A stretch of DNA of 64,000 bases from NCBI GenBank assembly GCA_015067885.1, contig SVLO01000010.1, positions 1 through 64,000 on the forward strand. The letters are read 5' to 3'. The stretch's first letter is position 1. The number at the start of each line of letters is the position of its first letter. The notes under the pieces are model-generated. The model did not search any database. It was not told where the DNA came from and saw only the letters and a program-made list of their open reading frames with translations. Source of the stretch: Oscillospiraceae bacterium. Lineage in GTDB: Bacteria; Bacillota; Clostridia; Oscillospirales; Oscillospiraceae. A program made the translations under genes and the position numbers. Positions 3,101 to 38,818 of this stretch are shown piece by piece.

Positions 3101-6029
3101 CTTCGACACTACCCACAACAGCCTCGTGTTCGACCAGGGCAGCAGCAAGGAATTCAACACCATCAAGCTGTATGACTTCGACGACTTCTCCCGGATGAGC
3201 AAGCAGCATCTGGGCGTGTTTGTCAGCGAGGACGGCGCCAACTACACCAAAATCAACGGCTGGCACCTCCATCAGGACGGCAACGAGTACACCATCTACA
3301 ACCTGTCCGCCAAGGCTCGCTACGTAAAGGTGCACACCTACCACGACGACCTGGACAACACCGGCGTGCAGCCCAGCTTCTACAACGCCGTGTCCGACAT
3401 GATGGCGGTCAGCTATAACTCCAATCTGGCCGGTGCCAACGGTGCCTTTGCCAATAAGGCCAACTACGTGGTGAAAAACCCCACCGACAAGGCCGTCAAG
3501 GACTACCCCGCCTTTATCTCCCTGACCGACTTGGGCGCCAAGGCCGGTCAGTACAAGAACGGCTGCGCCGACTTCCGCTTCACCATGGGCGGTCAGCAAC
3601 TGGCCTATTGGTACAACGGCGTGGACGGCTTCTACGTCCGCATTCCCGACATGGCGGCGGGCGGCTCTGCCACCGTCACCGCCCATTGGGGCTGTTCCTC
3701 TGCCGCCGACTTCTCCGATGCCGAGTCCGTCTTTGAGGTGACTTACGGCAACGTGACCCTCATCGACCTGACAAAAACCACCGGTCTTGCCTCCCACGGC
3801 AGACCCTTCACCATGCCCAACGGCGATATCGTCGTGGCCGGTCGTACCTCTGACACCAACGGCAACTTGGGCTTCGTCCGTTCCACCGACGGCGGCCGCA
3901 CCTTTAACCCCGTGCCCGAGATGGTCGCCCGCGACGCAGATTATCCCGGCCGTGCCTTTGGCTTTGGCGGCTTCCTCTATGACGAGGCGCTGGGCCGTGT
4001 GTGGCTGATTGGTTACAGCGCCAGCGCATCGAACAAGCAGGATATGCGCCTGGTGCTGTCCTATACCGACAACAACGGCGAAACCTGGTCCGAGCCCCGC
4101 TTCATGACCCTGCCCGATATGCCCACTATCCGGGACAACGACATCATCCTGCAAAACGCCATCTCCACCGCTACCTACGTTATGACCTACTGTGACGGTA
4201 TCACCCTGCGGGATGCTGACGGCAAGGGGCCCAACGTGGACTATATCATTGCCGCCGACGGCTCCGACTACACCATCCACCGCAACTTCACCCAGTGCTT
4301 CTACTCTGCCGACGGCGGTGAAACTTGGAGCTGCAGCGAGCTGATCTACGTGGATATCGACAACATCGGCAACAACGCCGAGCACGGCGTCACCGAGCCT
4401 ACCATCACCCAGCTGGATGACGGCAGCCTCTATATGCTCATCCGTGCCCAGATTCCCGACAACCACTACCTGTACGAGGCGCGCTCCACCGACTCCGGCA
4501 AGACCTGGACCTCCGGCTACTCCAAGGTCATCTCCGCCAACACCTCCCCCGTGCTGACCACATACAACGACCAGCGTGTCCTGCTGTGGACCAGTATGAA
4601 CGGTCTGGGCGGCACCAGCTACCGCCGCACCCCCATGCACGTGGGCTTCACCAGCGACAACTACGCGACCTTTGACCACATCATCGACGTGGTGTTCGGC
4701 ACCTCTTACGACAGCCTGGAAGAGATGTACACCCACATGACCCAACCCGGCCTCACCTTCACCAAGGACGGCAAGGATGCCCTGGCCGCCTTCTGGGACG
4801 CCAACCAGCTGCGCCGCTACGATGAGCGCGCTACCAACGCCGTGCTCATGGAGGACTTCAGCGACCTGGTCAACTACACCAAGGGCGGTTACGAGGACTT
4901 CGAGACGGCCAACCTGAAATATGAAGGCTGGCTGACCGTTGATGGCGTGATCGTCGAGCTGTCCCGCGAGGCCGCCACCTCCGGCATGCAGTCCATGAAG
5001 ATTGCCGACGTCAACCCCGGCACCGCCATCCACGCCACCCGTCAGGTTCCTTCTATGAAGTTCGGCACCGTGGGCGCCAAGATGATGGTGCCCGCCACCA
5101 ACAGCGAATACTTCGCCCTGGAGCTGAAGGCCGGCTTCAACTTCACCCATATGCAGCATACCCTGGCTGCCGTGGCGGTCAACGGTGACGGCACCGTGGC
5201 CCTGTGCTATGACAACGAAAAGATTCCCGTAGCCAAGGTTACTCCCGGCAGTTGGAATGACTACGCCATCAGCTTTGATATCGCCACCGGCATGGGCAAG
5301 CTGAGCGTCAATGACAAGGTGGTCAGCGACATCAAGCTAGAGACCGGCGAGTATATGTTCGGCGAGATGCGCCAGAACGTGGTGCGCGAGATTTCCTGCG
5401 TGCAGTTCATGCAGACCTCTGCCACCGCCGGTGTGGGCGATTGCCTGTACGTGGACGACTTCTACGCCACCGAACTGACCTCCCCCCTGTCCCGCACCCT
5501 CTGCAACATCGCCTTTGAGGATGTGAAGCAGGGCGACTGGTACTTCGACGCGGTGAACTTCGCCGTGGAAAACGGCATCATGTCCGGCTATAACGCCGCC
5601 AAGTTCGGCCCCAACGACACCCTGAACCGGGCAATGGTGGTGCAGGTCCTTTACAACAAGGAGGGCCAGCCCGACCTGGGCGGCGCCAAGCACGGCTTCT
5701 CCGACGTGCCGGCCAGCCAGTGGTTCAACAACGCTGTCACCTGGGGCAGCAACCGTGGCGTGGTCAGCGGCTTCGGCGGCGGCGTGTTCAAGCCCGAGGA
5801 CGCCGTGACCATTGAGCAGGTTGCCGTCATCCTGTGGAACTATTCCAACACCCCCGCCGGCTACGGCGACCTGTCCGAGGTCGGCAACCACAGCGACTGG
5901 GCGGCCAACGCCCTGAAGTGGGCAGTGGACGAGGACCTGCTTGAGAAGGTTCCCTTTACCAACGCCACCGAAAAGGCCACACGCGCCCAAACCGCGCAAA
6001 TTCTGACCAACTACCTGCGCGCCATCTGA
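111..6029 (+). CDS. SLH-anchored multidomain sialidase-like (BNR/Asp-box) exoprotein
   Basis: Large secreted, cell-wall-anchored carbohydrate-active protein of 1972 residues. A signal peptide occupies residues 1-27 (charged MKRMM, hydrophobic core, VSA cleavage region). Three repeats with an LDG-L-E-W pattern (about 42, 390 and 530) look like CBM9/DOMON-type modules, each followed by beta-rich, LamG-like sequence. Then come an atrophied Ig-like domain (about 885-965), a discoidin-like domain (about 970-1085) and a DUF2341-like domain (about 1120-1215). Residues 1225-1590 form a beta-propeller with four Asp boxes (STDGGRTF, YTDNNGETW, YSADGGETW, STDSGKTW) and a start motif HGRPF resembling the first sialidase arginine. 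A further LamG-like stretch precedes SLH repeats at about 1800-1972. Likely acts on host or mucin glycans at the cell surface. Sialic acid specificity is not proven; another Asp-box glycosidase is possible. The start is fixed by AAGGAGG and the signal peptide. Confidence 0.8.
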   Translation: MKRMMSWLLALVMTASMLPAAALPVSAAEPTAPLQAYYTDKNMSIDGLLREEHWLLRDKVGSTPISMLCNQDSLYVALQTGENEVEFTINGVTLMANLAVGAVLIGAEKVGVAAKDAANGTAEMEIPLSEINVLYSVGQEVPFSCKVGTDRYDGTAVLAAKAVRLAQSFDDISQQPYASKLGNPQTGEVFGEQGENGSLHIGTGTLTETGSSIGQPAWTLDAMNLDTTQGYELSFIADFNDLTVSAPGQEAYVALAGIAFDLRGEVYLRHGFSADKNGNLVVTQYENTADLTKVIDTGYDLPVKNLFVQIVVNDNFEVEVFLNGKSTAKFGTTTRRTAAGRFNIETTTLRRDTSLPNKNDINLYDLLITQAAPDEQISVNKVANTADLKLDGTLAEMLWALPYSVGGTRYGLLYDAENLYIALDTQQTQVEFLFGDQSATAKLGKKPNFALGYTMGSTIAGNGNGQYEIKVPRSLLKVAEPIPFTVLSDGQTRKSELTLSNTAITVTERQPAAGDGKVGAIAYLNTDKVKLDGKLKENHWYTPYQTAGASGSISTDIGFMWDANYLYVGAEMFSRSRAQSLNLTVNGKSFQANLAAGTASAGDVVVDGQTLEWRVPLTAIGLPVGGNVDTTFKLDVVGETGTSTTQGNLKLEATVVVFGDTCNDVNTKDYVLASGKMKGTYWEQGNDAYALTCDPTFTGNEYITKYTPLLNYEGGAYEFVLDMTIHSLPNNPRTLGWRGLNFEIRQPALQTRFALRGDGNGNVLFDVLNRRNAATLDTGIDFGERAIIKFKVDENLNPTLYVNDKQIGGFPALDRTSFTINDSLHMPRMIIEQLNYDRDPDADGTLSGINVDIHDILWTQVYFTDAKTAAASAMETISQDNLLLGASADDVTRLYLMDSISDTNTGATSTVTWKAIDKSTGKIAANVNTETGVITRADKPLYFDLIATVTYEGVGVSKTFTLQTKGKTPAGSVALLVEDTNPLTGKVETWGGNSFEYFDTTHNSLVFDQGSSKEFNTIKLYDFDDFSRMSKQHLGVFVSEDGANYTKINGWHLHQDGNEYTIYNLSAKARYVKVHTYHDDLDNTGVQPSFYNAVSDMMAVSYNSNLAGANGAFANKANYVVKNPTDKAVKDYPAFISLTDLGAKAGQYKNGCADFRFTMGGQQLAYWYNGVDGFYVRIPDMAAGGSATVTAHWGCSSAADFSDAESVFEVTYGNVTLIDLTKTTGLASHGRPFTMPNGDIVVAGRTSDTNGNLGFVRSTDGGRTFNPVPEMVARDADYPGRAFGFGGFLYDEALGRVWLIGYSASASNKQDMRLVLSYTDNNGETWSEPRFMTLPDMPTIRDNDIILQNAISTATYVMTYCDGITLRDADGKGPNVDYIIAADGSDYTIHRNFTQCFYSADGGETWSCSELIYVDIDNIGNNAEHGVTEPTITQLDDGSLYMLIRAQIPDNHYLYEARSTDSGKTWTSGYSKVISANTSPVLTTYNDQRVLLWTSMNGLGGTSYRRTPMHVGFTSDNYATFDHIIDVVFGTSYDSLEEMYTHMTQPGLTFTKDGKDALAAFWDANQLRRYDERATNAVLMEDFSDLVNYTKGGYEDFETANLKYEGWLTVDGVIVELSREAATSGMQSMKIADVNPGTAIHATRQVPSMKFGTVGAKMMVPATNSEYFALELKAGFNFTHMQHTLAAVAVNGDGTVALCYDNEKIPVAKVTPGSWNDYAISFDIATGMGKLSVNDKVVSDIKLETGEYMFGEMRQNVVREISCVQFMQTSATAGVGDCLYVDDFYATELTSPLSRTLCNIAFEDVKQGDWYFDAVNFAVENGIMSGYNAAKFGPNDTLNRAMVVQVLYNKEGQPDLGGAKHGFSDVPASQWFNNAVTWGSNRGVVSGFGGGVFKPEDAVTIEQVAVILWNYSNTPAGYGDLSEVGNHSDWAANALKWAVDEDLLEKVPFTNATEKATRAQTAQILTNYLRAI

Positions 6030-6057
6030 TTTGCTTTCTTCATTCTCCTATTTTTCC

Positions 6058-6099
6058 AAAGCAAGAGTCCGCAGCCAAACAGGCTGCGGACTCTTGCTT
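6058..6099 (+). terminator. Intrinsic terminator after the sialidase-like gene
   Basis: Perfect inverted repeat (GCAAGAGTCCGCAGCC and its complement, loop AAACA) flanked by A- and T-runs, so it could work in both directions. Confidence 0.85.
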
Positions 6100-6107
6100 T
6101 CCACACA

Positions 6108-6138
6108 CAAAAACAGCACCCGGATGGGTGCTGTTTTC
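6108..6138 (-). terminator. Intrinsic terminator after the Asp23 gene
   Basis: Stem ACAGCACCC/GGGTGCTGT with a GGAT loop, followed on the minus strand by a T-rich run. It lies just beyond the stop codon of the Asp23-family gene. Confidence 0.75.
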
Positions 6139-33033: not shown

Positions 33034-34710
33034 TCAGCGACACCGACGATCATAGACCTGATGGTCACGAACCTCCAAATGCTGATCTGCCGTGTCCAGC
33101 GCAGCCAGGCGGTGGGTAACTGCAATACAGGTGCAACCGGGCAGCTCAGCCAAACGCGCAAGCACGGTCCGCTCGGTCTGCCCATCCATGGCCGAGGTTG
33201 CCTCGTCCAAAAGCAGCACCGGGGCACCGCTGATAATCGCCCGTGCAATGGCAAGCCGCTGGGCCTGCCCCTCGGAAAGGCCCTCCCCATTCTCGCCCAG
33301 CGCGGTGTCCAGCCCCTGGGGCAGCTGATTCAAAAAGGCATCCATTGCACTGATGTAAATTGCCCGTTCCAAATCCTCGTCACTTGCATCGGGATTGGCC
33401 AACAGGATATTTTCACGCACCGTTCCGCTGAACAGAAGGTTTCCCTGTGGCACGTAGGCAAACAGGCCGCGTTTGAATTGACTCAAAGGAATCTGTTCTC
33501 CGTTTTCCTCAATGAACAGGCGGCCGGAGGATGGCCGATATACCTCCAGCAGGAGTTTCAGAATGGTGCTTTTTCCGATGCCGGAGGCACCTGTGATAAC
33601 GGTAAACTTCCCAAGCGGAATGTTGAATGACGCACCGTCCAGTACCAGCTCGTCCTCGTCATAGGCAAAGCTCAGGTTTTCGCCGACGATCATACCGGTC
33701 AGCCCGGCAAACTCTTTCTTTCGGTCGGCCGCTGCATTCGCATCCTCAAGCTGCTCCAGTTCCATCAGGCGTTCCGCGGCCGCACACATAGCCGTATACT
33801 TCGGCAGCACGCCCGACAGCCCGACCATGGGGGTCTGCAGTTGAGAAATGAGCTGCAAAACAGCCGTAAGGGTGCCGAAGGTCATGCTTCCGTTCATCAG
33901 ACCCAAGCCACACCAAAACATCGCTGCAAATTTAGAAAAGTGGAACACTGTGCTGATCGCTGTGTGGGCAGGCACGGACAACCTTCTGCGCCGATTGTGT
34001 GCCTGAGAGCGCTCCTCCAGCAGGCGGACAGCCCGCTTTTCAACCTCTTTGCCCAGGTTCATGGACTGAACGACCAGCAGTCGCTCCAGCGTTTCCTGCA
34101 AAATGGAAAGCACCTTTCCCTCCGCCTTGCTGATTGCAAGGTGTCGTTCCTTCAGCAGCCGACGCAGAAATCCTGTCCCCGCCAGCACGATCACGCCAAT
34201 GATGGAAATAAGCAGCACCAGCTTGGGTGCAATGGTTACCATGACCCAACCGGCCGCGCCCAAACGCACGATCATGGATACCAAATTGGGAAGAATACCT
34301 ACGACGCCGGTGTTGAGCTGACGCACATCGTTGTTCAGGCGATTGATCAACTCTCCGCTGTGGAAGCGGGCCGTTTTTTCATAGTCCGCCCGCAGCAAAC
34401 TGCCAAAAATCTGCTGCTTACGATCCCGGTCCAGATCCACGTTCAGGCGGTCCGAAAAATAGCGAGCCGCCGCACCGGAAAGCAGAATGATACTGATAAT
34501 CGCAAATTGCTTGATGCACGCCAAAAAAAACGCCGCTTTCTCCCCGGTACCTGCCGCCGCGATCGCGGTGTCGATGACGGTGCGGCTGCTTAGCGCGAAC
34601 CAAACTGCACCCAAAGCCTTTGCCACATCGGCAATAATCATGCCCAACAACATGGGCAGCCGCTTCACCGATCGTTTTGCGATCCAAAGCAGCACGGTTC
34701 TATCTTTCAT
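33034..34710 (-). CDS. ABC exporter (fused membrane and ATPase domains) of the RiPP-like cassette
   Basis: 558-residue half-transporter from the ATG at 34710 (AGGAGGATAT upstream). Six membrane helices (about 1-310), then an ATPase with Walker A GASGIGKST, signature LSEGQAQRLAIARA, Walker B VLLLDEATSAMD and H-loop VTHRL. No N-terminal C39 peptidase, so leader removal would need another protease; the S26-type gene overlapping it by 11 bp is the candidate. Last gene of the peptide cassette; likely exports the mature peptide. Substrate is inferred from context only. Confidence 0.88.
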   Translation of the reverse strand: MKDRTVLLWIAKRSVKRLPMLLGMIIADVAKALGAVWFALSSRTVIDTAIAAAGTGEKAAFFLACIKQFAIISIILLSGAAARYFSDRLNVDLDRDRKQQIFGSLLRADYEKTARFHSGELINRLNNDVRQLNTGVVGILPNLVSMIVRLGAAGWVMVTIAPKLVLLISIIGVIVLAGTGFLRRLLKERHLAISKAEGKVLSILQETLERLLVVQSMNLGKEVEKRAVRLLEERSQAHNRRRRLSVPAHTAISTVFHFSKFAAMFWCGLGLMNGSMTFGTLTAVLQLISQLQTPMVGLSGVLPKYTAMCAAAERLMELEQLEDANAAADRKKEFAGLTGMIVGENLSFAYDEDELVLDGASFNIPLGKFTVITGASGIGKSTILKLLLEVYRPSSGRLFIEENGEQIPLSQFKRGLFAYVPQGNLLFSGTVRENILLANPDASDEDLERAIYISAMDAFLNQLPQGLDTALGENGEGLSEGQAQRLAIARAIISGAPVLLLDEATSAMDGQTERTVLARLAELPGCTCIAVTHRLAALDTADQHLEVRDHQVYDRRCR

Positions 34711-35155
34711 ATATCCTCCTGATACGCCAGCGTACAGAACGCCACACACGGCGAAGCGGACGGCTCCAGTGCCACACACGACAATAAATCCGATAGGACA
34801 ACGCCGTCACCGGGATTTCTTTTTCTCCACGTCTGAACGCGGTGACCAAAGCCAGCATCTGATCATGGCGCAAGCCGCGCTCCACACCCAGCTGGTTGTC
34901 CCCGATGCAGGTATAGGTCTGCCCCACCTTCACGATGCGATGAAGCACAAACTGGCCACCCTTTCTTCGGTACAGCGGCAAGTCATACTTACGCAGCTTC
35001 TCCGGCACCGGTGACAGGGTCACGCTGTCAATCCCCGGACGAACCATGGGCAGCATACTGGTTCCCTGAGGGATAATGCGTATGCTCTCCCCCTGTGCGA
35101 AAGCCGCTTCCATCTGCGGAAGCAACTCTTTCAGATGCACGGCTGAGTTACACAA
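34700..35155 (-). CDS. S24/S26-family (SipW-like) peptidase of the RiPP-like cassette
   Basis: About 151 residues. The catalytic Ser motif GTSMLPMV (Ser about 33) and LHRIV (His about 72) follow the SipW/ER-type signal peptidase pattern in which His replaces Lys. There is no clear N-terminal membrane anchor. The C-terminus is strongly basic and Trp-rich (RVWHWSRPLRRVWRSVRWRIRR), possibly membrane-binding. The start is probably TTG at 35155, 10 nt after GGAG, overlapping the pqqD-like gene by 8 bp; GTG at 35140 is the alternative. Likely processes the cassette peptide; inferred. Confidence 0.78.
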   Translation of the reverse strand: MCNSAVHLKELLPQMEAAFAQGESIRIIPQGTSMLPMVRPGIDSVTLSPVPEKLRKYDLPLYRRKGGQFVLHRIVKVGQTYTCIGDNQLGVERGLRHDQMLALVTAFRRGEKEIPVTALSYRIYCRVWHWSRPLRRVWRSVRWRIRRIYER

Positions 35156-35408
35156 GCAGATCGCGCTCCTTCAGCATATCCACGAAGCTGGCCGCCGCCT
35201 GAGCCGCAGTAGCCTCGTCCACCTCGAACTCCGCCAGCAGGGTCTGGGTCAGATCCTCCATGGTGGCAGGCTCCTCCAGTCGCTTCCACATGGCGGCGGC
35301 GGTGGCGTTCAGGTTGATAACACCGTTCAAATCGACATCGGCGCCGGCGTTAACCACCACGTACTCACCGGCCACCTGCCGCATAACAAAACCTTTTTTC
35401 AGTTCCAT
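35148..35408 (-). CDS. PqqD-like (RiPP recognition element) protein
   Basis: 86-residue PqqD-family protein: GFVMRQVAGEYVVVNAGADVD, then LNATAAAMWKRLEEPATMEDL and a C-terminal helical wing (FVDMLKERDLLV). PqqD domains bind leader peptides in PQQ, lasso, sactipeptide and other RiPP pathways. Starts 5 bp after the HPr-kinase-like stop; AAAGGA site inside that stop region. Its presence is the main reason to read the cassette as RiPP-like. Confidence 0.9.
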   Translation of the reverse strand: MELKKGFVMRQVAGEYVVVNAGADVDLNGVINLNATAAAMWKRLEEPATMEDLTQTLLAEFEVDEATAAQAAASFVDMLKERDLLV

Positions 35409-35413
35409 TTTGT

Positions 35414-36124
35414 TCAATCCTTTCCCTTTACAGACATTGCCTCGTAAGCGACGTGGGCCGCCTCCGGGTCCATATTGCACTCCAAATGCCACACGGGCAC
35501 TTTGGCAAGCAGCTTGTCCAGCAGCGCGAGCATCATTTCGTTTCCCTTCTCGCCGAACGGACGCCCCGTCTGCGCCAGCAGGGTAAATACGGCCTCTCGG
35601 TGCGCGCATGGACGTATACGGTTTTCTGTGCCGCGGTGCAGCACGCAGACGCCGCCAAGGGGTACTCTCACGTTGCGGCTGCTGTCATCCTTTCCGCTCC
35701 AAGGCGTGCCGTAGGCGTAAAACTCACCGTCCTCCAGCAGACGAACAGCGGGCTTATCATCGTTTAGAATGAATGCGCCCTTATCCGCAAACTCCCGGCA
35801 CCACAGCTTGGTATGGGTGGATTTTCCCGTCCCACTGGGCGCGGAGAACAAGTAGGCGTAGCCGTCCACAACCACAGCGGAGGAGTGTATAAACATACCA
35901 TCATACTTCAACAACTGCCGATAAAACCTGCTTCCGGTTATTAAATATTCGCAGTCGTCCTCGCTCAAATGCGGTTGTTCCTGCCTCAATGTATTTCCTT
36001 TACTACTCACTACAAGATCTGCCGATCCCAGTTCCTCACAGCGATAGGGCTGCGCCTGTTTCTCTGTCCTGCCAAAGGTATCCATATCCACCAGCAGGTC
36101 GGCAATTTTATAACGTTGCACCAT
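35414..36124 (-). CDS. HPr-kinase-like P-loop protein of the RiPP-like cassette
   Basis: 236 residues from the ATG at 36124 (GAGGTG upstream; a GTG at 36133 is less well placed). HPr-kinase C-terminal fold: HSSAV (about 80-84), P-loop SAPSGTGKST (about 94-103), LNDDKPAV and a conserved TPWSGK segment. Related stand-alone kinases modify lasso precursor peptides in Paenibacillus and proteobacteria. Here it sits between the peptide gene and the pqqD-like gene, so peptide phosphorylation or a related nucleotide-dependent modification is plausible. It lacks the N-terminal domain of true HprK. Confidence 0.85.
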   Translation of the reverse strand: MVQRYKIADLLVDMDTFGRTEKQAQPYRCEELGSADLVVSSKGNTLRQEQPHLSEDDCEYLITGSRFYRQLLKYDGMFIHSSAVVVDGYAYLFSAPSGTGKSTHTKLWCREFADKGAFILNDDKPAVRLLEDGEFYAYGTPWSGKDDSSRNVRVPLGGVCVLHRGTENRIRPCAHREAVFTLLAQTGRPFGEKGNEMMLALLDKLLAKVPVWHLECNMDPEAAHVAYEAMSVKGKD

Positions 36125-36245
36125 ACGCTTCACCTCAAAAGAACAAAAATAGCACTCAAATCAAAACTTCGGTCTCGGACACAGGTCCGCACATTCGGGC
36201 CTTTGTCACAAACCGAAGTCGGCAAACCAACATATTAGGGTGGTA

Positions 36246-36273
36246 TCCCCCAGCGGCATACGCCGCTGGGGGA
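36246..36273 (-). terminator. Hairpin between the peptide gene and the kinase-like gene
   Basis: Perfect stem CCCCCAGCGGC and complement, loop of about 4-6 nt, with no T-run on the minus strand. More likely a partial attenuator or mRNA-stabilising element that raises peptide expression over the downstream genes. Nothing else with a good ribosome site is seen in the 160 bp between the two genes. Confidence 0.6.
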
Positions 36274-36284
36274 TGGACTGATGA

Positions 36285-36413
36285 TTACCAGTCAATGGCG
36301 GTCTGGTTTTCGCAGTTCAGATCATCGTCACAGGTATCCACAAGGCTAGCCATAACGACATCAACGATCTCGAACTCCTCGACGCTCATCTTGGGCATCT
36401 CAAACTTCTGCAT
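36285..36413 (-). CDS. Candidate RiPP precursor peptide, 42 residues
   Basis: Small gene with a strong ribosome site (GGAGGTGAG, about 9 nt before ATG). The N-terminal half, MQKFEMPKMSVEEFEIVDVV, is leader-like: acidic, with a conserved-looking K-F-E-x-P-x-M pattern and a DVV-x-A-S boundary. The C-terminal half (about residues 24-42) is acidic, has two Cys (28 and 34, C-x5-C), Thr27, Thr38 and ends in Asp-Trp. From memory, similar short K-[YF]-E-x-P peptides are common beside PqqD/HPr-kinase-like genes in gut Clostridia. No homology search was possible. It directly precedes the kinase-like, PqqD-like, peptidase and exporter genes. Confidence 0.72.
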   Translation of the reverse strand: MQKFEMPKMSVEEFEIVDVVMASLVDTCDDDLNCENQTAIDW

Positions 36414-36482: not shown

Positions 36483-38045
36483 TTAGTGCTTTATGATCTT
36501 CTCCATGAAGTTCATAAACAGCTGTGCGCCCTCGGCGCGGGTGGCGGTGTGGGTAGCGCCCAGAATATTGCCGCCCTTGCCACTCATCAGGCCGGTGCCG
36601 ACCGCCCACTGCATGGCGGCGGTGGCCCACCAGGAGACCTCGTCACCGTCGGCGAAGGTAGACAGGTCAGCGGACACGTTCACGTCGTAGCCCAAAGCCT
36701 TGGCATAGTTGTAGAGGATCTGGGCAAACTCCTCGCGGCTGAGGATCTTGTTGGGCTTGTAGGAGCCGTCGCCGTAGCCGGCAACCACGTCTTCGCGGGC
36801 AGCCCAGTTAACGGCAGCGGTGTACCACTGACCGGCAGGAATGTCGGTAAAGCCGTGGACGTAGGTATGCTTCTCGGCACCCTCCAGGTTGTAGATGACC
36901 TGAGCCAGCATACCGCGGGTCATAGGCACCTCGGGGCTGAAGGTAGTGCCGTCGCCGGTACCGGCGAACAGGCCGCGGGCGGCAACATAGTCAACGGCAT
37001 TGTTGGCCCAGTGGCCGTCCATGTCCACAAACTCCTTGGACTTGTCAACCACCTTCACAGTGGCATCCTTATCCAGGGTAACGACCACACCACCATCGGT
37101 CATGGTCGTACCCTTGACCACTTCCTCGGTGCCGTCGGAATGCACGATGACGACCACGTTGCCGGTGCTGTCCTCTTTCACGGGGATCACAACTTTGGTC
37201 TCGCCGTCGGGAACATCAATGTTCAGCTCGTCCTTGTCCTTGATGGGCAGGGGCAGCGTGACAGGCTCGGTAGCGCCGGCAGGAACGACCACTTCGGTGG
37301 CGCTGGAGTTGCCGTTCTTATCGGTCACAGTGGTGGCGGTAACGCCATTGGTGCCCGTGGTGATCTCGGTCACAGTGCCGGTTTTCTTATCAGTAATGAT
37401 GGTGGTAACGGAGCCATCCTCGTTCTTAACGGTCTCAGTGGTGGTGTTGGACACACTGCCACCGCCGCCACCGGTTGGCTTGGTGCGGGTAACGCTGAAC
37501 ACGTACCTGCTATTGGCAGAAGTCATGGTATACTCTTTTTTGAGGGTCAGCTTGCTGATGGGAGTGGTCGAGTCCTCCAAGTACTCCTTCAGGTCGCCGT
37601 TGCTGCTGCCGCTAAACAGGCCATCGTCTACATCGGAGGAAATCCAGCTGCTCCAGGTCCCGCCCAAATACGCGGCCTTGGCGTCGTCAAACCAATCGTC
37701 CAGCTCGACGGTCCAGATGGAGTACAGACCGCACTTCTCCGGTGTACAAACTGGATCGCTGCTGCTCTTGCCCTGTGCGATGTGATTTCTGTGGGCGGTC
37801 TTGTATGCGTTGGAAAGGCCATCGCCCATGGTTTCAGCACCGATAATGTCAAAAATAGACTCGATCAGTTTTGCCGTATCACCCAATCCGGTGTCGTTCT
37901 TCATGGTGACGATCTTGTTAAGGACCCGGTCCGTCACCTTAACGGTAAGGGTATTTTCACTCGCCGCCGAAGCGTAGGGCACCATGGTCAGCACCATGCA
38001 CGCCATCAGGGCAATTGCAGCGATTCGTTTCATCATTTTTTTCAT
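36483..38045 (-). CDS. SLH-domain secreted protein
   Basis: About 520 residues from the ATG at 38045 (GAGAGGG upstream). Signal peptide with cleavage near YASA-ASE. Residues about 30-190 form an uncharacterised domain (LTVKVTDRVLNKIVTM; PEKCGLYSIWTVELDDWFDDAKAAYLGG) containing two Cys. A GGGGGS linker and a long Thr/Val/Asp-rich beta-repeat region (about 200-340) follow, then three SLH repeats (about 340-520). It starts 2 bp after the gene for the proline-rich membrane protein and ends 70 bp before the peptide gene, so co-expression with the peptide cassette is possible. Confidence 0.85.
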   Translation of the reverse strand: MKKMMKRIAAIALMACMVLTMVPYASAASENTLTVKVTDRVLNKIVTMKNDTGLGDTAKLIESIFDIIGAETMGDGLSNAYKTAHRNHIAQGKSSSDPVCTPEKCGLYSIWTVELDDWFDDAKAAYLGGTWSSWISSDVDDGLFSGSSNGDLKEYLEDSTTPISKLTLKKEYTMTSANSRYVFSVTRTKPTGGGGGSVSNTTTETVKNEDGSVTTIITDKKTGTVTEITTGTNGVTATTVTDKNGNSSATEVVVPAGATEPVTLPLPIKDKDELNIDVPDGETKVVIPVKEDSTGNVVVIVHSDGTEEVVKGTTMTDGGVVVTLDKDATVKVVDKSKEFVDMDGHWANNAVDYVAARGLFAGTGDGTTFSPEVPMTRGMLAQVIYNLEGAEKHTYVHGFTDIPAGQWYTAAVNWAAREDVVAGYGDGSYKPNKILSREEFAQILYNYAKALGYDVNVSADLSTFADGDEVSWWATAAMQWAVGTGLMSGKGGNILGATHTATRAEGAQLFMNFMEKIIKH

Positions 38046-38047
38046 AA

Positions 38048-38818
38048 TCAAATCCCTCTCTTCTTTAATTCGGCTAAATACCAGGATTTTTTCAAACTTT
38101 TTTCTTCGAGATACGTGTCATACACCGCTTGCGCGATGGACAGGTCGCCGCCATTCGCCGCCAGCAGCGTTTCCATTCGACCGATAATCTCTCTCATGCG
38201 GGCATCGCATTCCAATTCAAGGCTGTGCGCCGTCGAATAGTACTTACTTGCAAGGCCGGCGATCTTGGTGGTGGTCCTCTCCTCTTTCGGAAGGGCCAAG
38301 TACTCCGCCTTGGCCTGCTCCATCAGGTTGTCCAGTTTGATCAGGAACTCTTCCCGCAGAACGTAGACTTCCGCAATGATAGCGGCCAGCTGCTTTTGAT
38401 AGTCACTCACCTGTGGCTGCTCCGGCTCCGGGCCGGGTTCAGGCGGAGGTTGCGGCGAGGTCTCCCCCTCCTGCTCGGGCGGCTGTGGCGCGTCCGCGGC
38501 AGGCGGTTCCGGCTTTTGCGCCGGTTCGATCATGCTTTGGACCAGTTCCTCACTGGTGATGGTTCCGTCTTTCAGCGCCTGTCTGTCCGCTTCGGTCAGT
38601 TCCCGAATGGTAATGTCGGGGACAAGCTGGGCAGCGTCTTTGATGGTTTGGTCATTCTCCTCCATTTTTTGCTGTAACTCCTCGGAAGAATACCGCAGAC
38701 CCGAAACCATTGCGCCAAGGTCGTCGCGGAAGCAAAACACAACGACACCTATGCCAACAACAAGGGCGGCCACAATGCCGAGAATAATCTTTTTTCGTAA
38801 CGACACCGGAGCAACCAT
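38048..38818 (-). CDS. Hypothetical single-pass membrane protein with Pro/Glu linker
   Basis: 256 residues, not recognised. One membrane helix (about 9-29, IILGIVAALVVGIGVVVFCF), a helical region (about 42-95), a Pro/Glu/Gln-rich linker (about 98-137), then a C-terminal helical domain rich in charged residues (about 138-256). Probably an extracytoplasmic protein anchored by its N-terminus. The ATG at 38818 abuts GGGGG, too close for a good site; the GTG at 38806 is better spaced and may be the real start. Own promoter upstream. Co-transcribed with the SLH gene. Confidence 0.65.
   Translation of the reverse strand: MVAPVSLRKKIILGIVAALVVGIGVVVFCFRDDLGAMVSGLRYSSEELQQKMEENDQTIKDAAQLVPDITIRELTEADRQALKDGTITSEELVQSMIEPAQKPEPPAADAPQPPEQEGETSPQPPPEPGPEPEQPQVSDYQKQLAAIIAEVYVLREEFLIKLDNLMEQAKAEYLALPKEERTTTKIAGLASKYYSTAHSLELECDARMREIIGRMETLLAANGGDLSIAQAVYDTYLEEKSLKKSWYLAELKKRGI

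Follow-up and report, generated by a model that had tools for sequence, protein, structure and literature searches.

A minus-strand gene cluster encoding a 42-residue peptide, an HprK-like kinase, a PqqD-type protein, an S26/SipW-like peptidase and an ATP-binding cassette (ABC) exporter was analysed in a 64,000-nucleotide stretch of DNA from an Oscillospiraceae bacterium (Clostridia; GCA_015067885.1, contig SVLO01000010.1, positions 1-64,000, forward strand), the whole of which is hereafter called the window. We read this cluster, with a probability of roughly 0.8, as a diverged clostridial variant of the clusters that make Linear Polyphosphorylated Peptides (LPPs), a kind of ribosomally synthesised and post-translationally modified peptide (RiPP). 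LPPs were described in 2026 from the lpp cluster of Paenibacillus alginolyticus, one of the Bacilli, as the products of a set made of a discrete RiPP recognition element (RRE), an HprK-like kinase, a SpI/SipW-like leader peptidase, an exporter and a short precursor with a YxxP leader, with no lasso cyclase (PMC13381572, cited here for its main text). In that system LppK polyphosphorylates core Ser3 and LppS (S29/H68/D93) removes the leader, helped by the RRE LppB, and unphosphorylated precursor is poorly cut by LppS (PMC13381572). The window shares the gene set and its order, the discrete RRE, the short aromatic-xxP precursor with a variable core and the lack of a cyclase, and its relatives share the patchy distribution. 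The features, as far as they concern the argument, are the following.

36483-38051, minus strand: S-layer-homology (SLH) protein gene, directly upstream of the precursor gene at 69 bp
36285-36413, minus strand: precursor peptide gene, 42 aa, ATG start, GGAGG ribosome-binding site
36134-36284, minus strand: structured spacer with two stem-loops and a 26-nt perfect hairpin core at 36247-36272
35414-36133, minus strand: HprK-like kinase gene, GTG start, with an alternative ATG at 36124 that is better placed behind a ribosome-binding site
35148-35408, minus strand: PqqD-type discrete RRE gene, 86 aa, Pfam PqqD
34700-35155, minus strand: predicted S26/SipW (SpI)-like leader peptidase gene, from motifs, profile and fold matches
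33034-34710, minus strand: ABC exporter gene, permease and ATPase, Pfam ABC_membrane and ABC_tran

The original prediction for this DNA had described a 42-codon gene and four same-strand genes with one 5-bp gap and overlaps of 8 and 11 bp, all of which were found again: the gap between the kinase and PqqD genes covers 35409-35413, and the overlaps lie at 35148-35155 (PqqD/S26) and 34700-34710 (S26/ABC). It had also taken the cluster for a RiPP cassette, rightly, its kind being now described as LPP (PMC13381572), and had assigned presentation of the peptide to PqqD, its modification to the kinase and leader removal to the SipW-type enzyme, roles that match the experiments on the related lpp cluster (PMC13381572). 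Its exporter lacking a C39 domain is borne out by Pfam, in which the ABC protein matches a permease and an ATPase domain but no C39.

Among the other proteins, the PqqD protein matches Pfam PqqD with E 8e-17, and the kinase, the S26 protein and the peptide have no Pfam match at E 0.01. The top NCBIfam match of the ABC protein is an MsbA-related model, with a score below the model cut-off; the LPP exporter is likewise MsbA-like. Alignment-based AlphaFold models reached a pLDDT of 93.2 for the kinase and 92.2 for the S26 protein. The kinase model resembles PEPCK/HprK folds in a structure search (E 8e-6), and H82, K103, D124 and D125, which do not vary among 13 aligned sequences, are read as the His-Lys-Asp-Asp motif of lasso-tailoring kinases (PMC9266682); a kinase with its catalytic residues, as LPP clusters have, is present. 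The S26 protein model resembles LexA/signal-peptidase folds weakly (best E 1.7e-3, none at E ≤ 0.001), and every PDB profile match of this protein at E ≤ 1 is a signal peptidase (best E 0.0033). Moreover, G-x-S-M-x-P and H-R are invariant in an alignment of 15, and the spacing between Ser33 and His72 is 39 residues, equal to that of LppS S29/H68. No transmembrane stretch was apparent by eye in the S26 protein, and its gene adjoins that of the discrete RRE, as in LPP clusters. The PDB relatives of the window RRE are PbaB1, TbiB1 and TfuB1 and, by profile, also LppB.

The window peptide displays an FxxP leader (F4-P7), F14, S23, an acidic tail and a terminal Trp. Its relatives were sought in 141 regions, which comprise 60 from a first set of relatives, 80 loci from named genomes and the window; the scan of named genomes kept 80 of at least 528 kinase relatives, these 80 being mostly from uncultured Clostridia. 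An earlier motif scan separated kinase genes (51 of 135) poorly from other genes (30 of 305) and was therefore replaced by a precursor profile of 29 seed rows, which include alternative starts of one gene and one probable non-precursor (L140); this profile was run on 13,368 small open reading frames (ORFs) of the 141 regions. Matches at E ≤ 1 are found solely on the kinase strand, loci outside the seed included, and those at E < 0.001 either precede the kinase gene or reach its start, with one weaker match (L061, E 0.0015) downstream. This pattern of strand and position rejects a chance ORF. Of the 15 matches found in 60 further regions, 13 are upstream on the same strand, one is downstream (L236) and one is on the opposite strand (L239).

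The peptide family, called class B, is present in 37 of the 141 regions, the window counted. For 38 peptides from 37 loci the sequences were anchored on the first aromatic residue of the leader, L061 and L074 being dropped for want of an anchor and the rows of a sister type, described below, being kept apart. Offset 0 is aromatic (Tyr in 28, Phe in 10), offset 3 is Pro and offset 10 is Phe in 33 of 38 each, offset 14 is acidic in 37, and offsets 17 and 19 are Thr and Ser in 17 and 20 of 38. Pairwise identity falls from 0.37 in the leader (offsets 0-14) to 0.10 in the core (offsets 20-29); the family thus has a conserved leader and a hypervariable core. Indeed, the window peptide and its homologue from the same genus (L210) are almost identical in the leader and differ in the core. 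Ser is found in all 38 cores (from offset 13; 30.0 expected from composition), 16 of 38 tails have a Trp among their final five residues against 6.8 in shuffled tails, and none of the 38 peptides ends in Ser. As the chemistry, it had been proposed that there might be phosphorylation or a disulfide only. Phosphorylation is the likely chemistry, while a disulfide peptide is rejected because just 2 of 38 tails contain a Cys and the L210 peptide has none.

The same prediction had suggested looking for the gene order across Clostridia, and had named homologous clusters that never carry a precursor-like peptide as evidence against itself. Genes in the regions were called with a custom ORF picker, and cassette counts rest on profile matches over all ORFs. 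Kinase, PqqD and S26 genes succeed one another in that order in 50 of the 141 regions, and are followed by the ABC gene in 28 (labelled genes only); the kinase stands alone in 34. Because this order recurs in 50 regions, the grouping exceeds chance. Precursors of both types are carried by 35 of the 67 regions with kinase, PqqD and S26, compared to 2 of the 34 with the kinase only, so that the prediction withstands the check it had set itself. Kinases at least 90% identical form two pairs among the 141 regions and none among the 43 rows used for covariation below. The spread of kinase relatives is patchy: they occur in 64 of 300 family genomes (single query, E ≤ 1e-5, sister type counted), in 126 of 394 order genomes (profile, E ≤ 1e-20) and in 5 of 61 genus genomes, that of the window counted. 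A first contig scan with a single kinase query gave no match.

The window differs from the LPP system in its FxxP leader and in an Ala at the RRE position equivalent, by residue mapping, to LppB Asp70. In the crystal structure of LppB with its leader, Asp70 hydrogen-bonds the leader Tyr (PMC13381572). The equivalent column was located by alignment of the RRE and LppB profiles and read in every RRE. Among 43 paired loci, 8 of them of the sister type, Tyr leaders go with Asp (31), Glu (1), His (1) and Ala (1), and Phe leaders with Ala (5), Ser (3) and Cys (1), that is, Tyr with an acid in 32 of 34 and Phe with a small residue in 9 of 9. Fisher's test (acid versus not) gives 9.8e-8 for the 43 pairs and 7.8e-7 for the 35 class-B rows, and among the 88 columns compared this one scores best (4e-7), the runner-up reaching 9e-4. 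On the kinase tree the leader changes six times and the RRE five, so that the covariation rests on 5-6 switches; over four independent pairs on supported branches, 2.8 on average are concordant, none is opposite and in 1.2 the RRE is unchanged. Stop-to-stop frames, searched with no start or ribosome-binding-site filter in loci lacking a pair, added none to the 43. In a hold-out of 60 further regions (6 duplicates), the 15 precursor matches yielded nine usable pairs: Tyr/Asp in seven, Tyr/His in one and Phe/Ala in one.

A further difference is the surface-protein gene directly upstream of the window precursor. Its product shows three SLH stretches and, by a simple pattern, a signal-peptide-like start, and the gene is a probable co-transcribed partner of the precursor gene. 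Next to it, a gene for a 256-aa protein with no Pfam match (38048-38818, minus strand) has a 4-bp overlap with the SLH gene, taken at its longest frame, and may be on the same transcript. A same-strand gene ends 10-69 bp before the precursor start in 26 of the 37 class-B loci (threshold ≤ 75 bp), the upstream frames measuring from 126 aa (cut by a contig end) to 2596 aa. With the sister type included, the upstream gene has at least 500 aa in 31 of 47 cases against 35 of 515 other genes of the same regions, a crude baseline that includes spurious ORFs and related regions. A secreted-looking N-terminus was seen by a simple pattern in 16 of 17 complete ones, the exception being the radical SAM gene of L078. 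The upstream gene thus apparently encodes, nearly always, a large secreted protein. Pfam matches of 26 upstream proteins (last 1500 residues) were InlB-like repeats in four, beta-helix in two, SLH in one (the window) and Ig-like and others in one each, and their C-termini fall into several groups with no mutual BLAST match. In the added regions, a gene of at least 200 aa lies within 75 bp upstream in 10 of 11 non-duplicate loci. In two loci, L125 (precursor 5963-6118) and L224 (3588-3713 and 3778-3891), the tail of the upstream protein resembles that of the peptide and ranks first of 43 tails; 22 of 5000 permutations reach the mean resemblance. That peptide cores in general imitate the upstream tail was rejected, these two being the only ones of 43 to rank first.

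Behind the precursor gene, the folded segment 36134-36290 (157 nt) has a minimum free energy of -65.5 and a z of -6.1 against dinucleotide shuffles, and its stem shows one compensatory A-T to G-C change against L210. Of 18 such spacers of 40-400 nt, 15 have a z below -3 (60 mononucleotide shuffles). A known RNA family was rejected, an Rfam search of the spacer giving no match at E 1, and so was a repeated genomic element, with one exact site in the genome and two more with 2-3 mismatches. The hairpin probably sets the ratio of precursor to enzymes.

Several observations weigh against the LPP reading or its extension to a leader code. The window peptide lacks HQxIxFET and a Ser at core +3, keeping the aromatic-xxP, a nearby Phe and Ser. 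Indeed, the LPP consensus is YxxPxVLxHQxIxFETxxS (PMC13381572), while the clostridial Phe lies 10 rather than 13 residues after the first aromatic and an ED-V-I-T-x-S type consensus replaces HQxIxFETxxS; the Ser at offset 19 is limited to the 20 peptides counted above. By profile, TfuB1, TbiB1 and PbaB1 are closer to the RREs than LppB, which comes fourth among the PDB matches. An NTP transferase gene belongs to the co-occurring LPP set, although its deletion left the detectable products unchanged (PMC13381572); NTP_transf_5 (PF14907, nucleotidyltransferase) has no match in the window's own genome, which is 87% complete, and is found in 27 of the 67 regions with kinase, PqqD and S26, contig ends cutting some regions. 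In 32 of these 67 no precursor was found. As for the covariation, a tree-aware sign test on the four independent pairs is not significant, L093 (Tyr/Ala), L133 and L213 (both Tyr/His) are exceptions, and the hold-out holds a single Phe case.

According to the LPP reading, the 42-aa peptide would be made together with the SLH protein encoded just before it, with the hairpin as the probable setter of the precursor/enzyme ratio. The PqqD protein would grip the FxxP leader in a pocket that has no counterpart of the Tyr-holding Asp of LppB, as suggested by the covariation. Given the analogy with LppK and the intact catalytic motif, the kinase would place at least one phosphate on a core Ser, most likely S23. 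The SipW-like serine peptidase, by homology with LppS, would then cut the leader presented by the RRE, and the ABC protein would export an acidic core of about 20-25 residues, which, from the gene context, probably acts at the cell surface.

A different target for the same enzymes is unlikely, namely polysaccharide or the adjacent surface protein as the main substrate of kinase and exporter, the peptide being merely a guide or regulator. Surface-protein genes do adjoin the precursor in most loci, Wzz (8), CpsB/CapC (3) and SLH (6) matches occur among 135 pooled neighbours, and L125 and L224 show the tail resemblance; however, LppK phosphorylates the peptide itself (PMC13381572), only L125 and L224 of the 43 loci show the resemblance clearly, and the upstream C-termini belong to several unrelated groups. 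Surface-polysaccharide genes near part of the relatives are a feature shared with LPP loci, which often lie among capsule genes (PMC13381572). An unmodified, exported signalling pheromone, with a kinase that is no peptide kinase, would suit a small, acidic, hypervariable core whose chemistry is predicted here from genes. We regard it as highly improbable, since the kinase catalytic motif is invariant in 13, the kinase precedes PqqD and S26 in 50 of 141 regions, and LppS cuts unphosphorylated precursor poorly (PMC13381572).

The lasso-like leader motif and RRE, and the fact that kinases of this kind tailor lasso peptides (PMC9266682), call for comparison with a degenerate or split lasso cluster, in which precursor, B1 protein, kinase and exporter are kept and the cyclase and B2 protease are lost or elsewhere. 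Paeninodin-type systems (PadeK/PsmK kinases, PsmN) share the kinase with its His-Lys-Asp-Asp motif, the discrete RRE and the exporter logic (PMC9266682), and lasso precursors pair a [Y/W]xxP leader with a discrete RRE; the latter is present, with FxxP in the window and Tyr in 28 and Phe in 10 of the 38 family members. In contrast to those systems, neither a lasso cyclase nor a Transglut_core3 protease was found, and C-terminal Ser is absent from class B. In its own genome Transglut_core3 (PF13471, the lasso B2 family) has no match and the Asn-synthetase-like cyclase family PF00733 only two short ones (63 and 41 positions); since that genome is 87% complete, a distant cyclase is still conceivable. 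Neither family occurs at least twice among 135 of 205 pooled neighbours (25 of 113 families listed, so that a single-member family may be hidden there), and an S26 peptidase recurs instead. Hence we consider a lasso origin very unlikely. The SynChlorMet (ScmC) and HPr-rel-A cassettes of NCBIfam also combine an HprK-related protein with a PqqD-family chaperone, but the weak window matches lie far below the curated cut-offs, and the SynChlorMet models include a radical SAM protein, which the window operon lacks.

Two other arrangements were observed around related kinases. In ten regions (L078, L080, L082, L083, L084 and L087-L091) the kinase is accompanied by a Cys-containing sister precursor of 60-86 aa with a YxxP leader, a conserved Cys and a Cys-Tyr pair near the end, and in nine, L082 excepted, by a radical SAM gene. 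All ten sister precursors end in Ser, against none of 38 in class B, as do substrates of paeninodin-type kinases, and seven start 10-29 bp after a protein of more than 1200 aa; these cassettes are possibly a phosphorylated radical-SAM RiPP class. In L149, L154, L155, L157, L159 and L162, kinase and PqqD genes occur with no S26 gene, and the gene behind them encodes 487-499 aa (family f10); its member in L162 matches DUF1846. This is a different kinase-PqqD pairing.

Surface-protein coupling, the Phe code and the RNA structure after the precursor go beyond the main text of PMC13381572, in which Clostridia, S-layer and surface proteins are unnamed, and neither the clostridial variant nor the surface-protein link was found in print in the main texts of the open-licence literature searched. 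We propose, as a joint idea that is doubtful as a whole, that Phe with a small neutral RRE residue forms a third leader code beside the published Tyr and Trp codes, and that the clostridial peptides work together with large surface proteins: precursor and surface protein would form one highly expressed unit closed by the hairpin, with the enzymes expressed less strongly by read-through, and the phosphopeptide would bind, cap or decorate the surface layer. On the LPP reading, the logic of the Bacilli cluster recurs patchily in Clostridia, in assemblies that in many cases come, judging from the record titles, from gut and rumen. Its link to surface-protein genes shows concretely where the function of these peptides could be sought, and the Tyr/Phe covariation provides a specificity code that can be tested and that would help to match precursors with their RREs.

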